Both the position numbers and the translations under genes were made by a program. This document shows, one piece after another, positions 1 to 5,974 of a stretch of 35,423 bases of DNA. Each line of letters starts with the position of its first letter. Position 1 is the first letter of the stretch. This stretch comes from Paracoccaceae bacterium. GTDB taxonomy: Bacteria; Pseudomonadota; Alphaproteobacteria; Rhodobacterales; Rhodobacteraceae. The notes below the pieces were generated by a model. That model did no database searches, was not told the DNA's origin, and saw nothing but the letters and a program-made list of their open reading frames with translations. The stretch spans positions 1 through 35,423 of the forward strand of contig JAQWKM010000186.1 of assembly GCA_029247845.1 (NCBI GenBank), in the 5' to 3' direction.

Positions 1-186
1 ACCGTTCAAAGACAACGAACCGCTCGATTGCGTGAGCAAACCTGAAATCAGATTTACCAATGTACTCTTTCCAGCGCCATTTGGACCAATAAGGCCTCGA
101 ACCTCTCTAGGTTGTATAGAAAATGAGACATTTTGGACGGCCTTCACGCCACCAAATGTTTTGCTTATTCCGGAGAGATCAAGCAT
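1..186 (-). CDS. ABC transporter ATP-binding protein, LivG-like (N-terminal part, cut by window edge)
   Basis: Only the first 62 codons lie in the window. The start ATG is at 186. The Walker A motif GPNGAGKST is visible at residues 34-42. The opening (a short beta strand, then KTFGGVKAVQNVSF) resembles the LivG-type ATPases of branched-chain amino acid or amide uptake systems. It would energise import at the inner face of the cytoplasmic membrane. The start overlaps the stop of the upstream cysteine hydrolase by 8 bases, so the two are probably translationally coupled, which ties the transporter to that hydrolase and the amidohydrolase before it. The specific substrate cannot be told from this fragment, and the LivG assignment rests on the N-terminal motif only. 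Confidence 0.85.
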   Translation of the reverse strand, partial: MLDLSGISKTFGGVKAVQNVSFSIQPREVRGLIGPNGAGKSTLVNLISGLLTQSSGSLSLNG

Positions 187-820
187 TGGCCACCTCTTCG
201 ATAAGTTCACGGGATGTCACTTGACGGCAATAACCCTTTATTGTTCTCAGTGAATTCTCATGGCGTTCCTGACTATAGGTAAGGGTCGCATCCGTTACTT
301 CTGTCACAAGATAACCCAAATCGCATGCATCCCGAATAGCACTTTCAACGCATTGATCTGTAATAAGCCCGGAAATAACCAATTGTTTTACTCCAAGGTT
401 CCTCAAAATATAATCGATATGGGTTGAAACAAACACAGATGATGAAGTTTTGGGAAGCACAATTTCGTCCTCATATGGCTCAAGCTGACCTATAACTTTA
501 CCATCCCAAGAGCCCTTTGGCACGTTGAAGCCAGTTATTTTATAATCAAGTGACCTATCCCGCCCATCAAGCGTTAGACTTTCAATTGTTGTGTACATCA
601 CCTCGATATTAGCGTTTCTGCAAGCAGATTGAATGGCTTGCATATTTGGGATTACGCGCGTATTTAGTTCGTTGAAAAACCAGCCATATTTATTAGTGAA
701 TTCATCGCTGGGTAAGCTGGAAAATTCAGATCCATTTGGATGCGCCGCGAAGTTCTGCACATCGATGAACAAAAGCGCGCTTTGCTCAGGTTTGAGTGAA
801 ATGTTTCGACTCAATGTCAT
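179..820 (-). CDS. isochorismatase-family cysteine hydrolase
   Basis: 213 aa, within the usual length of the family. The expected catalytic triad is visible: Asp20 in LFIDVQNF, Lys124 in VLPKTSSSVF and Cys157 in GLITDQCVESA. The GLITDQC and AIRDACDLGY segments are typical of amidohydrolases related to N-carbamoylsarcosine amidase and nicotinamidase, so hydrolysis of a C-N bond (amide, carbamoyl or ureido) is more likely than true isochorismatase action. No signal peptide, so cytoplasmic. The start shares one base with the stop of the N-formylglutamate amidohydrolase homologue upstream (TAATG), and its stop overlaps the ABC ATPase start: a compact three-gene operon. The substrate is not recognisable from sequence. 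Confidence 0.88.
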   Translation of the reverse strand: MTLSRNISLKPEQSALLFIDVQNFAAHPNGSEFSSLPSDEFTNKYGWFFNELNTRVIPNMQAIQSACRNANIEVMYTTIESLTLDGRDRSLDYKITGFNVPKGSWDGKVIGQLEPYEDEIVLPKTSSSVFVSTHIDYILRNLGVKQLVISGLITDQCVESAIRDACDLGYLVTEVTDATLTYSQERHENSLRTIKGYCRQVTSRELIEEVANA

Positions 821-1560
821 TATAGCCCTTTCAAAAAATCATTGAGTGCTTTAGTGAGAAGTTTTGACCATTGGGAGACTCCAATCTGATGGTTGATTTG
901 ATCATTTCGTACTTCAATCAAGCAATGTGGTAGCTGCCTTGCCTCGGCATGTTGCGGAATAAACCAGTCCGTTTTATCGTCAATTTGGTAAGGTTGATTA
1001 ATTGCTAGATTTAAATCTGGTCTAATTTGCGCAATGGAATTAATCAAAGCTTCGGCAGTTGACAGACTTTTACGAGACAAGAACCCAGCGTTCCATGCCC
1101 GTGCATGACCGCCAAAAACTGGCGTGTAAGAGTGAATTGAAAAGGCTGCTTTTCGTTCACTAGAATCAAATGCGGCCTTGATGGCCTGATCCATTGGCTC
1201 AAAAATCGCATGCCTGCGTGCCTCTTTCTCATTGAAGTCCAGATTTTTGTTTGCAGCAATTTCAATATCATCACTGATTTCCGGTATTGACTCACTGCTT
1301 CCCGGCGGCCGGTTAGAGTCTATAACCAGTCGACTGTAGCGCTGAAGTATCAAAGGCGCCTGTATGCTTTGCGCCAGTTCGCGCGCAAGAGTTTCCGCGC
1401 CAATATCCCAACCGCGGTGACTAGAAAGCGTAGCATTATCAAGTCCCAGATTTTTAAGCGATTTGGGAATGGCGCGTCCGGCATGTTCACAGAGCAACAA
1501 TAAAGGCACCTTACTAGAAGGATTGACCAGCTCGACGGGATTAGGATCTAGCTCGGTCAT
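820..1560 (-). CDS. N-formylglutamate amidohydrolase family protein
   Basis: About 246 aa from the ATG at 1560; the frame stays open to 1659 with alternative starts at 1587 and 1659, none with a clear ribosome site. I chose 1560 because family homology begins soon after it. Family (FGase) features are LLCEHAGRAIP near the N-terminus, GWDIGAETLARELA, an Arg-rich YSRLVIDSNRPPGSSES and SIHSYTPVF. Known members hydrolyse N-formyl-L-glutamate to formate and glutamate in histidine degradation (HutG type), but no hut gene is in view. The neighbours are an amidase-like cysteine hydrolase, a GS-like ligase, an RpiR regulator and an ABC ATPase, so the enzyme may act on another N-acyl or amide compound. 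First gene of the leftward operon. Confidence 0.85.
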   Translation of the reverse strand: MTELDPNPVELVNPSSKVPLLLLCEHAGRAIPKSLKNLGLDNATLSSHRGWDIGAETLARELAQSIQAPLILQRYSRLVIDSNRPPGSSESIPEISDDIEIAANKNLDFNEKEARRHAIFEPMDQAIKAAFDSSERKAAFSIHSYTPVFGGHARAWNAGFLSRKSLSTAEALINSIAQIRPDLNLAINQPYQIDDKTDWFIPQHAEARQLPHCLIEVRNDQINHQIGVSQWSKLLTKALNDFLKGL

Positions 1561-1669
1561 CAATTTGAAGTGAGTGGCATACGTCATATCGCAAGGTAAT
1601 GAAAATAAAATTCCACTGTCAAATAAAATTTTGTTGACTGAAATTTTTTTTACTATCATTTGTGCTTTT

Positions 1670-2518
1670 ATGTTGATCCGCGATCAAATAGAAAAGAACT
1701 CTGGGACACTGACGCAATCCGAGCGTAAACTCGCGTCTGCTTTATTGTCCGATTATCCCTATGCCGGTTTAGTCACTATACAAGAGTTGGCTGAAAGAGC
1801 CGAAGTTTCACCCCCGTCGATTTCCCGTTTTGTTACAAAGATAGGTCTATCAGGCTATCAAGAGATGCAACGCCGACTGATTAGAGAATTAAAAGGTGGT
1901 GATAATTCCCCACTAGAGCTTCATGAAACAGGACGGCGAATAGAGGGCAGATATCTTGCGGAATTTACGCTTCGTGCAGCGGAACAGATGCGAGTGGCGG
2001 CAAAAGCGGTCACAGAAGGGCAATTTGAGCGCATTGTTGACTTAATTAGCGATCCGAAACGAGACATATATGCTCTTGGTGGGCGAATTAGCGATACCTT
2101 GGCAACGCATTTGTCATTTCACCTGCGTCAAGCGCGCAAAGGAGTATATCATATTCCACGCGACCCCGAGAGCTGGCCAGAATATCTTTTGCGGATGAAA
2201 TCAGGTGATATTTTCTTTTTAGCGGACTTTCGCAGATATCAGCCCAACCTGACGCACCTGGCGAAACAAGCGTCTGTTGACTACAAAGCTCAGGTCATTT
2301 TGATGACAGATAAATGGCTGTCGCCAGCCAACCGCCATGCATCAGAAGTTTTAGCGGTGCCCATCGATACAGGAACGATCTGGGATAGCTATAGTGCAGC
2401 GCTTGCCGTAACCGAAGCGCTGGTTACGCGCGTGGCAGAGAAAAAGTGGGATAGCACGCGGCAGCGTATAGAGTCATGGGACAGAGCCCGAAAAAATCAA
2501 TTGGAGGACGATAAATGA
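1670..2518 (+). CDS. RpiR-family transcriptional regulator (HTH + SIS domain)
   Basis: 282 aa from the ATG at 1670 (MLIRDQIEKN). The same frame opens earlier at 1574, but that would overlap the divergent operon, and homology starts only after 1670. The N-terminal HTH_6 domain spans about residues 10-75, with the recognition region LAERAEVSPPSISRFVTKIG. A SIS (sugar/phospho-ligand binding) domain follows at about 120-260. RpiR proteins bind DNA as dimers and respond to a small ligand. It is divergent from the amidohydrolase operon and overlaps the GS-like gene by ATGA, so it probably controls both from the 1561-1669 intergenic region. The ligand is unknown. Confidence 0.88.
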   Translation: MLIRDQIEKNSGTLTQSERKLASALLSDYPYAGLVTIQELAERAEVSPPSISRFVTKIGLSGYQEMQRRLIRELKGGDNSPLELHETGRRIEGRYLAEFTLRAAEQMRVAAKAVTEGQFERIVDLISDPKRDIYALGGRISDTLATHLSFHLRQARKGVYHIPRDPESWPEYLLRMKSGDIFFLADFRRYQPNLTHLAKQASVDYKAQVILMTDKWLSPANRHASEVLAVPIDTGTIWDSYSAALAVTEALVTRVAEKKWDSTRQRIESWDRARKNQLEDDK

Positions 2519-3816
2519 CGCCCTTAATATTCGCAGCCACCTGTGATTTGGCCGGTAAAGTGCGCGGTAAAGCTTTCCCAGCTTCAGATTTGGGTCGACG
2601 GCTTGAAAGAGGCGTGGGTTGGACACCCACAAACGTTCAGATCAACTGCTTTGACGGCATAGCAGATAGTCCGTTTGGGGCTCTGGGTGATCTACTTTTG
2701 GTCCCAGATGAAGGCACAAGAGTTGACCTAGAATTTGCGACTAGGCGCGAAAGTTTTATACTGGGAGATATAATTACTCTAGAAGGTCAATACTGGGATT
2801 TCTGCACGCGCTCCCTACTTCGCTCAGCCCTCAATCGGCTACAAGAGGTTGCTGGTGTTAAGCTCTTGGCAGCTTTTGAACACGAATTCCAAATGAAATC
2901 AAAAAGCGGCCTTACAGGAGAAGGATTTGGCCGTTCAGGTTTTGAACACCAGCGCGATCTGTGCGAGTCAATTATAGCTCAGATAAGTGCTGCAGGTTTA
3001 AAGCCCGAGAGTATCATGAAAGAATATGGACCTGAGCAATATGAAGTTGTTATCGGCCCAGAGATAGGCATTCGCGCAGCAGATGCCGCAGTTATCGTAA
3101 GGGAAATCACGCGATCCACAGCACGTTTTCTGAATGAGGAAGCAACATTTACCCCAATCCGTGATCCAAAAAGCGTTGGAAACGGAGTTCATATTCATAT
3201 GAGCTTTCTAGATCTGGAGGGCAACCCGCAAACTTATGATCCATCAGGCGACTGTGGGATGTCTAAGATTACAAGTGCATTCTCAGCAGGTATTTTGAAA
3301 TATCTCGAAAGCATCCTTGCATTAACAGCGCCATCCGTCATTTCCTATCTTCGATTAACGCCTCACCGCTGGTCGGCTGCTTACAACAATTTGGGCTTTC
3401 ATGACCGCGAGGCATCGCTTCGAATATGCCCAACGACTGTAAAAGATCCATTAGAAATAGAACGCCAGTTCAATATAGAATATCGCGCAGCAGACGCCTC
3501 AGCCTGTCCTCACCTTGCGCTGGCTGCAATTGTTCATGCAGGAGTCCAGGGAATTGAAGATGGCCTGACAGCGCCTAAGCCCTCAGAGGAAGATTTGTCG
3601 TTGCTGTCAGCAGATGAGCTTGGCAAGCGCGGATTTGTTCGCCTTCCAGAGACGCTTGAAGATGCTCTTGAACGAATGCGCAATAACCCAATACTGTCAA
3701 AATGGTTTCCAGACGGGTTTTTACCTGTCTATCTATCTCACAAGACGTCCGAAATTTCTCATCTCGCAAATATGGATGATGGAGATCGATGTAAATTATA
3801 TGAAACAACCTACTAA
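2515..3816 (+). CDS. glutamine synthetase family protein (GS-like gamma-glutamyl ligase)
   Basis: 433 aa. Members of this family join glutamate to ammonia or an amine using ATP. Visible GS landmarks are the metal-binding FEHEF near residue 122, EQYEVVI, ATFTPIR, the GNGVHIHMS loop, the substrate/ATP region SYLRLTPHRWSAAY, and EYRAADAS. Several positions differ from housekeeping GlnA: the usual NR before the aaxRxP motif is DR (HDREASLRI), and the usual NPYL is CPHL. It is therefore a GS-like enzyme, perhaps a gamma-glutamylamide synthetase of the PuuA/GlnA3 kind, rather than the ammonia-assimilating GlnA. Its ATG overlaps the regulator's stop by four bases. Cytoplasmic. Confidence 0.85.
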   Translation: MTPLIFAATCDLAGKVRGKAFPASDLGRRLERGVGWTPTNVQINCFDGIADSPFGALGDLLLVPDEGTRVDLEFATRRESFILGDIITLEGQYWDFCTRSLLRSALNRLQEVAGVKLLAAFEHEFQMKSKSGLTGEGFGRSGFEHQRDLCESIIAQISAAGLKPESIMKEYGPEQYEVVIGPEIGIRAADAAVIVREITRSTARFLNEEATFTPIRDPKSVGNGVHIHMSFLDLEGNPQTYDPSGDCGMSKITSAFSAGILKYLESILALTAPSVISYLRLTPHRWSAAYNNLGFHDREASLRICPTTVKDPLEIERQFNIEYRAADASACPHLALAAIVHAGVQGIEDGLTAPKPSEEDLSLLSADELGKRGFVRLPETLEDALERMRNNPILSKWFPDGFLPVYLSHKTSEISHLANMDDGDRCKLYETTY

Positions 3817-4862: not shown

Positions 4863-5215
4863 CTCACAACTTTCTCAACTGATTTGATACCAAAGCACCC
4901 TAAACTATAAAATCTGCTAACACCATTTTTCTAGTCTGAGTGGTTAGGATCAGTTTTATCAGTATGGTGCGCGTAAGCTTATTGCTAAAAAATTAAAACT
5001 CTTTTCTCCCTAAGACAATAGCCTGATGGACCTGCATCCGTAAAGATACCGTTTTGTTAGAACTGTTTTCTAAGGTCAGGGGTGGGTGACGGAGGAAAAA
5101 ACTGATTTATTTAACGATCCTCAAGGCCAGTTAACAAGGACATCAGTCATAAATTTACCAAGCATTCACACTTCCTAATGGTTACACTTCAGTGCAGATG
5201 GGCTATGAGAAAACA
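4863..5215. other. 353-base intergenic region, no gene recognised
   Basis: AT-rich stretch between the divergent oxygenase and sirtuin genes, so it should hold promoters for both. I see no RNA gene and no convincing hexamer pair. A GTG-started frame of about 30 codons beginning near 5086 follows no recognisable family. Confidence 0.4.
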
Positions 5216-5974
5216 ATGAAAAATAAAACTCTTTACATAACCGGGGCAGGCGTTAGCGCAGAAAGTGGTATTCCTACCTTTCGGGGTAAAGATGGCTTTT
5301 GGACTGTTGGCAGTCAGAACTATACGCCACAGGAAATGGCAACGAGGCAGATGTATTTGTCACATCCAGATGAGTTTCTGCTGTGGTATTTCAAACGATT
5401 TGCGTCATATCGCCATATAAAGCCCAACGCTGTTCATTACTGGCTGACTGATAAACGGCTGGTCACGCAGAACATAGATGGCTTAGACGGCAAGGCTGGC
5501 AACGCTGCATATGTGCCAATCCACGGACGTCTAGACAAGGTGACAGTGCTTCACGAACAGGGGCTGGACGTTCCTCTGATTGACGCCCCTTGGGAAGACG
5601 TGGCAGCAGTCTGCGATGATTTGGACGATAACTCACGCCTTACACCGGTCCTGCTAGACGCTTTCAAAATATCAAAGACAACGCTCAAACCAGAACCTGA
5701 TGTGTCTCTGAAGCCATTCGTTTTGCTATTTGATGAATACTATACCGATCTCTATCGCATGTCAGAGGCAGAAGATTGGATGCACGACGCCCAGCGCATA
5801 GTATTCATGGGAACGTCGTTCAGCGTAAATATAACCAGTATCGCCTTACGCACTGCCCTTTCAAACGAAGCCGCCATTGAGGTCGTTGATCCTCAACCAA
5901 TTGATCTTGGATACGAGAGAATCGAATATCACAAGATGACGGCAGCCGATTACGTTTCAGACAGATCGGGATGA
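5216..5974 (+). CDS. Sir2-family NAD-dependent deacylase lacking zinc-ribbon cysteines
   Basis: 252 aa from the ATG at 5216 (weak GAG ribosome site just upstream); a GTG at 5192 and an ATG at 5198 are in frame. Sirtuin NAD-binding motifs are clear: GAGVSAESGIPTFRG at residues 10-24, TQNIDG at 84-89, catalytic His103 in PIHGRL, and GTSFSVNIT at about 199-207. Sirtuins normally carry four zinc-binding cysteines between the catalytic His and the xRPxVVxFGE segment. Here there is a single Cys (133) and the equivalent segment reads LKPFVLLFDE. The NAD/catalytic core is thus retained while the structural zinc module is missing or remodelled. It stands alone, with no defence partner next to it. Activity could be deacylation, NAD hydrolysis or ADP-ribosylation; the family call is firm, the function not. 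Confidence 0.85.
   Translation: MKNKTLYITGAGVSAESGIPTFRGKDGFWTVGSQNYTPQEMATRQMYLSHPDEFLLWYFKRFASYRHIKPNAVHYWLTDKRLVTQNIDGLDGKAGNAAYVPIHGRLDKVTVLHEQGLDVPLIDAPWEDVAAVCDDLDDNSRLTPVLLDAFKISKTTLKPEPDVSLKPFVLLFDEYYTDLYRMSEAEDWMHDAQRIVFMGTSFSVNITSIALRTALSNEAAIEVVDPQPIDLGYERIEYHKMTAADYVSDRSG

Follow-up and report, generated by a model that had tools for sequence, protein, structure and literature searches.

Our analysis of the window (the whole 35,423-nucleotide stretch of DNA presented above) suggests that the protein encoded by a stand-alone gene at positions 5216..5974 of the + strand is a class III (CobB/SIRT5-like) sirtuin that deacylates protein lysines in an NAD-dependent manner; it would have a zinc-independent small domain and would stand in for CobB. 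Based on sequence comparison and structural modelling, we assign this reading a probability of about 0.7. The carriers are mainly marine Alpha- and Gammaproteobacteria. Translation yields an intact frame of 252 residues followed by a stop codon, without internal stop. An alternative GTG start at 5192, 24 bases upstream of the ATG, would add 8 residues; the ATG at 5216 was taken as the start since it agrees with the N-termini of most relatives. Pfam SIR2 (PF02146) covers residues 10–204, and its score of 79.1 bits (cut-off 24) places the protein in the SIR2 superfamily; SIR2 is the sole Pfam family listed for it at E up to 0.1, and neither SIR2_2 nor any defence model matches. The NCBIfam CobB and deacylase models match the protein (P0001) far below their cut-offs (104 versus 243 and 101 versus 320 bits). 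In the window's own genome, a 2.6-Mb draft of 75.7% completeness, no match to the protein and no PF02146 match other than this gene was found.

The initial annotation had described an intact NAD core along with the absence of the zinc-ribbon cysteines, and both observations are confirmed. The NAD-binding segment (residues 7–24, ITGAGVS..SGIPTFRG; 5234..5287, + strand), which comprises GAGVSAESGIPTFRG at residues 10–24, is conserved in the 81 distinct proteins of the family defined below except for residues 7 and 15–16. The catalytic motif TQNIDG (residues 84–89; 5465..5482, + strand) is read from the translation and conserved in the family, and the catalytic His103 (5522..5524, + strand) is His in 56 of 57 alignment rows. 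Cys133 is the only cysteine of the protein, and residues 165–174 read LKPFVLLFDE.

A scan of genome contigs yielded 184 relatives, the best 80 of which are 59–88% identical across almost their entire length. Judged from their record titles, these best 80 of 184 comprise 53 loci from Alphaproteobacteria, 23 from Gammaproteobacteria, 1 from an unplaced member of the Pseudomonadota, and 3 with Bacteroidota/Spirochaetota labels, which are possibly mis-binned drafts; many carrier titles name marine groups (SAR116, Pseudoalteromonas, Thalassotalea, Rhodobacterales). The family set considered here consists of these 80 relatives, the window's own gene and 3 same-genus loci (partly repeats), that is, 84 loci with 81 distinct proteins, and the more divergent relatives beyond the best 80 lie outside the family counts. 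Each of the 84 loci encodes 0–2 cysteines and none a CxxC...CxxC ribbon, and the cysteine share of any column of the 57-row family alignment is at most 16% of rows. The frame is open at all 84 loci (237–258 residues), and dN/dS amounts to 0.07–0.19 in six family pairs, synonymous sites being saturated in two further pairs; these values indicate that the family is under purifying selection. The concern raised in the initial annotation that this copy might be a recent degenerate allele is thus dispelled, since its close homologues likewise lack the cysteines and dN/dS is low.

The gene is not universal even in its genus: of 6 other drafts, 3 carry it and 3 have no match. When the family profile was run against 398 genomes of the phylum, the window's own gene scored 450.7 bits and the next best match 73.4 bits, and the remaining 397 genomes contained no member; this sharp gap, together with the 397 empty genomes, indicates that there are no intermediates and that the phylum at large seldom carries the family. 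Among 100 genomes representing 100 genera of the window's own taxonomic family, 58 carry a PF02146 gene, which scores 130–161 bits in 56 of them and about 80 bits, in zinc-less form, in the remaining 2; the second of these ~80-bit genes (in G063) is a zinc-less family member by sequence. Two loci deserve separate mention. In a Cellvibrionales draft (L102:503-1267), the catalytic His103 of a family member is exchanged for Tyr; the protein is possibly inactive, or else this is a sequencing matter. In a same-genus draft (G005:C131:6775-6906), a 44-residue stretch that is 89% identical to the N-terminus is found besides a full-length member, and represents either a fragment or an assembly duplicate.

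An AlphaFold2 model of the window protein, obtained with 57 family sequences (pLDDT 91.2, pTM 0.87), ranks close to known sirtuins: VIA-align comparison with Sir2Af1 (1m2g) yields a Z-score of 22.1 (rmsd 2.7, 221 aligned residues), comparison with CobB and SIRT5 yields Z-scores of about 21, and all 50 Foldseek matches listed are sirtuins. The model predicts that the CobB/SIRT5 fold, with Rossmann and small domains, is retained and that the place of the Zn(Cys)4 ribbon is taken by a strand-plus-helix module, which bears out the earlier proposal of a remodelled small domain. The module (residues 106–165; 5531..5710, + strand) is associated with a predicted strand at 104–111 and helices at 126–132 and 139–149, and its ten-residue blocks exhibit pLDDT values of 92–97; the blocks of the cofactor loop (21–30 and 31–40) are the weakest, with 53 and 74. 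Across the family the module varies from 49 to 67 residues. A second AlphaFold2 model, calculated for L061, a member from the Gammaproteobacteria whose module spans 49 residues (pLDDT 90.4), contains module strands at 102–109 and 119–121 and a helix at 129–139, and aligns with the same 1m2g chain with a Z-score of 21.8 (rmsd 2.7, 217 aligned residues). Comparison of the two models suggests that the strand and the second helix constitute the module core, while the first helix is optional. From DSSP assignment and conservation, we infer that the module may pack via the conserved residues W126, L146, F150 and I152. Within residues 104–166 of the 57 rows, D107 is the sole fully conserved possible ligand (57/57), and the next columns reach at most 79%. 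Zinc coordination by alternative His/Asp/Glu ligands, which the initial annotation had named as a way in which its reading could fail, was rejected because no such ligand set is conserved, and the replaced module is apparently metal-free.

Comparison of 19 family rows with 58 other sirtuins reveals which parts of the active site were kept and which were changed. The family retains (i) G10-A11-G12, S14, R23, Q85, N86, D88, G199 and S201, as well as H103 in 18 of the 19 rows, that is, the NAD-site motifs and the catalytic His of the SIR2 superfamily, and (ii) the Tyr-x-x-Arg motif Y58-x-x-R61 (5387..5398, + strand), present in all 19 rows and invariant in the family, which we equate with the acyl-pocket pair Tyr102/Arg105 of SIRT5 and its CobB counterpart. 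Four places are different. The strand PFVLLFDE (residues 167–174; 5714..5737, + strand), which we take to be the substrate strand by the role of that strand in sirtuins, contains D173 in all 19 family rows where all 58 other sirtuins have Gly, so that FGE becomes FDE; the family strand reads LLFDE.YT, whereas mostly VWFGE is found in other sirtuins. In D225-P226 (5888..5893, + strand), Asp is present in all 19 family rows in place of the Asn found in all 51 zinc-type rows, an Asn that in zinc-bearing sirtuins contacts the adenosine ribose. Residue 91 is Asp in all 19 family rows and His in 56 of the 58 others. Finally, the cofactor-binding loop (residues 25–45; 5288..5350, + strand), the region of lowest pLDDT in the model, holds a 4-residue insertion with invariant G32 and S33 that is present in 19/19 family rows and 0/58 other sirtuins. 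In the tree set, position 225 is Asp or Glu in all 26 cysteine-poor rows and Asn in the 51 others.

Loss of the zinc cysteines is, judging from the sequences, not unique to the family. Among 26 other sirtuins from the search for relatives, 25 contain both CxxC pairs and the remaining one, L013, has three of the four cysteines, and all 30 best-scoring loci from the search of the window's own taxonomic family have at least 4 module cysteines, a sample biased to ordinary sirtuins. A spread of 40 phylum sirtuins, hand-picked below the top 30 of the 398-genome list and thus not a random draw, contains 35 with at least 4 module cysteines, 2 with three and 3 with at most 2. One cysteine-poor protein outside the tree set (L217) has a single module cysteine and keeps both FGE and Asn; it apparently lost its zinc site independently, and it breaks a strict link between Asp225 and zinc loss. 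The premise of the initial annotation that canonical Sir2 enzymes always hold Zn(Cys)4 was thus too strong, as other CobB-like sirtuins also lack the cysteines. Such cysteine-poor CobB-like proteins (L141, L165, L166, L168, L183, L192 and L193, and also L218 and L221) are encoded on two plasmid records from Bacteroidales and in some Pseudomonadota. The first seven, which are the CobB-like tree rows devoid of the cysteine tetrad, share with the family an acidic residue at the Asn position (Asp in 6/7, Glu in 1/7); unlike the family, they possess a short module of 33–36 residues, FGE, His at position 91 and a short cofactor loop.

In a tree calculated without the module, the family forms one clade (100/100) whose stem is very long, at 4.8 changes per column, so that the zinc-less clade whose existence had been left to a phylogeny does exist, with 0–2 cysteines at each of its 84 loci. 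The free tree places the family beside other cysteine-poor rows (split 86/65, with a bootstrap that is not fully settled). Holding the seven cysteine-poor rows together is not rejected (p-AU 0.429), nor is placing the family with 33 CobB-like rows (p-AU 0.355). The tree tests are compatible with one loss as well as with several, and common descent of the family with the cysteine-poor CobB-like sirtuins is neither shown nor rejected by the sequences. Six loci (L171, L173, L182, L186, L195 and L197) were left out of the tree, having no usable sirtuin by pattern.

The family thus resembles the class III CobB/SIRT5-like sirtuins Sir2Af1, E. coli CobB and SIRT5 in its whole-length predicted fold, NAD residues, catalytic His and Tyr-x-x-Arg, and differs from them in lacking Zn(Cys)4, in its 49–67 residue module, in FDE, in Asp for Asn and in the longer cofactor loop. 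Class III sirtuins have been described as having a broad, undifferentiated deacylase range (PMC10652111). SIR2 sirtuins devoid of a predicted zinc site have been described in silico for some genera of acetic acid bacteria; by description, they share with the window protein the SIR2 domain, a predicted NAD site and the missing zinc cysteines (PMC11820453). Canonical sirtuins are regarded as needing the zinc ribbon for deacetylation in PMC12700824, which likewise describes FAM118, ThsA and other SIR2_2 proteins as lacking the zinc module and processing NAD. Those proteins process NAD as multimers, are kin to antiphage sirtuins and belong to another Pfam family, whereas the window protein matches PF02146. 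Porphyromonas gingivalis CobB, from the Bacteroidales, deacetylates RprY with NAD according to PMC6032018, and two other Bacteroidales sirtuins (L192 and L193) lack the zinc cysteines; by analogy this offers a hint that cysteine-poor relatives might be active, the P. gingivalis sequence itself lying outside the comparison. In a literature search that covered subscription journals thinly and is no proof of absence, PMC11820453 and PMC12700824 came closest to a zinc-less bacterial CobB-like group, and a search on zinc sparing found nothing.

The genomic context suggests that the family member appears to replace CobB in its carriers. Of 24 carrier loci, 22 lie in genomes that could be searched; 20 of these genomes yielded no PF02146 gene besides the family member, and the other two (G137 and G145) have a second sirtuin; many of these genomes are single-cell or metagenome drafts by title, so that some second SIR2 genes may be missed. 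Acetyl-CoA synthetase, the classical CobB target, is present in the window's own genome (998.6 bits). The window gene is located between a gene for a 2OG-Fe(II) oxygenase on the opposite strand and one for diaminopimelate epimerase, and its description as a stand-alone gene is upheld: the family as a whole shares no conserved partner gene and exhibits lineage-specific synteny only, and the window protein and three neighbours have no match in the PADLOC defence library (E up to 0.01). Nine neighbouring proteins, encoded in the window up to about 11.6 kb, contain no defence, effector or macrodomain family by Pfam and NCBIfam. A defence or toxin role was rejected on the lack of a PADLOC match and of a conserved partner. 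Likewise, a viral origin was rejected: a single-protein query, which is sensitive to close relatives only, found no relative among viral contigs, and the 40 matches listed of 54 in phage records are all at most 38.1% identical, the one of these that was examined (L199) having four module cysteines. Elsewhere in the window, positions 179-3816 hold a cluster of genes for an isochorismatase-like hydrolase, an N-formylglutamate amidohydrolase-like protein, an RpiR/SIS regulator and glutamine-synthetase-like proteins, which is suggestive of a locus for the catabolism of amino acids or polyamines. In a plasmid record of Pseudoalteromonas sp. CF6-2 (L198:4979-6717), a family member and a kelch-repeat gene share 4 bases of overlap; both genes lie under the match in 6 of 8 Pseudoalteromonas plasmid hits and possibly constitute a lineage-specific operon in these plasmids.

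In the mechanism that we infer, which extends to catalysis, acyl preference, the absence of bound metal, module packing and physiological targets, NAD would bind to the Rossmann fold via GAGVS, FR, QN.D and GTS, and His103 would drive the usual ADP-ribosyl-imidate chemistry. Tyr58 and Arg61 would line the acyl pocket and may admit short as well as acidic acyl groups. The small domain would be held by the metal-free module, that is, a long β-strand that extends from HGR into the module, followed by a short returning strand and a helix, with packing presumably provided by the conserved residues L146, F150 and I152. Acetyl-CoA synthetase would be the obvious candidate for a physiological target.

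Several features sit uncomfortably with an ordinary deacylase: the changes from FGE to FDE, from Asn to Asp225 and from His to Asp91 and the loop insertion are located in functional places, and the cofactor loop is the weakest part of the model; scores under the NCBIfam cut-offs, Tyr for His103 in 1 of 57 rows, a second SIR2 gene in 2 of 22 genomes and presence in 3 of 6 same-genus drafts also count against it. FDE, Asp225 and the cofactor-loop insertion would be the signature of a specialised sirtuin, which performs the same chemistry on a narrowed or new substrate such as one protein, an unusual acyl or lipoyl group, or a small molecule. The fixation of D173, D91 and the insertion in 19/19 family rows, the absence of D173 and the insertion from all 58 other sirtuins, the divergent LLFDE.YT strand and the long stem of 4.8 changes per column fit such a specialisation; the retained Tyr/Arg pocket, the lack of a conserved partner gene and the status as sole sirtuin in most carriers, which argues for a general CobB role, make it unlikely nonetheless, although it is the chief rival reading.

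An activity as NADase or ADP-ribosyltransferase, as the initial annotation had entertained, would rest on analogy with zinc-less SIR2_2/ThsA proteins or the SirTM class, and zinc-less FAM118, ThsA and SIR2_2 proteins do process NAD according to PMC12700824. Nothing in the family points there: the match is to PF02146 and not to SIR2_2, neither PADLOC nor the nine scanned neighbours provide a defence, effector or macrodomain connection, the catalytic His (56/57 rows) and the invariant Tyr/Arg of the acyl pocket are kept, and the best fold matches are deacylases. We consider this activity improbable. A CobB copy that is in decay or has lost its catalytic activity could account for the lost cysteines, the altered FGE and the scores under the NCBIfam cut-offs, yet it is hard to reconcile with open frames at 84 loci, dN/dS of 0.07–0.19 in six unsaturated pairs and conserved catalytic residues, and is the least credible of the explanations. 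The combination of a retained His, an invariant Tyr/Arg pair and a sole SIR2 gene in 20 of 22 genomes fits a replaced CobB-type deacylase.

It is tempting to speculate, albeit with considerable doubt, that the family constitutes a distinct sirtuin class that would be metal-free by design, with a reworked NAD and substrate site conveying a new substrate or acyl specificity, and that would be favoured in the zinc-scarce open ocean. The family provides a natural test of what zinc does in sirtuins, and its enzymes, being compact and poor in cysteine, lend themselves to biochemical work. For the carriers themselves, the replaced module suggests that protein deacylation may resist zinc stripping or cysteine oxidation.
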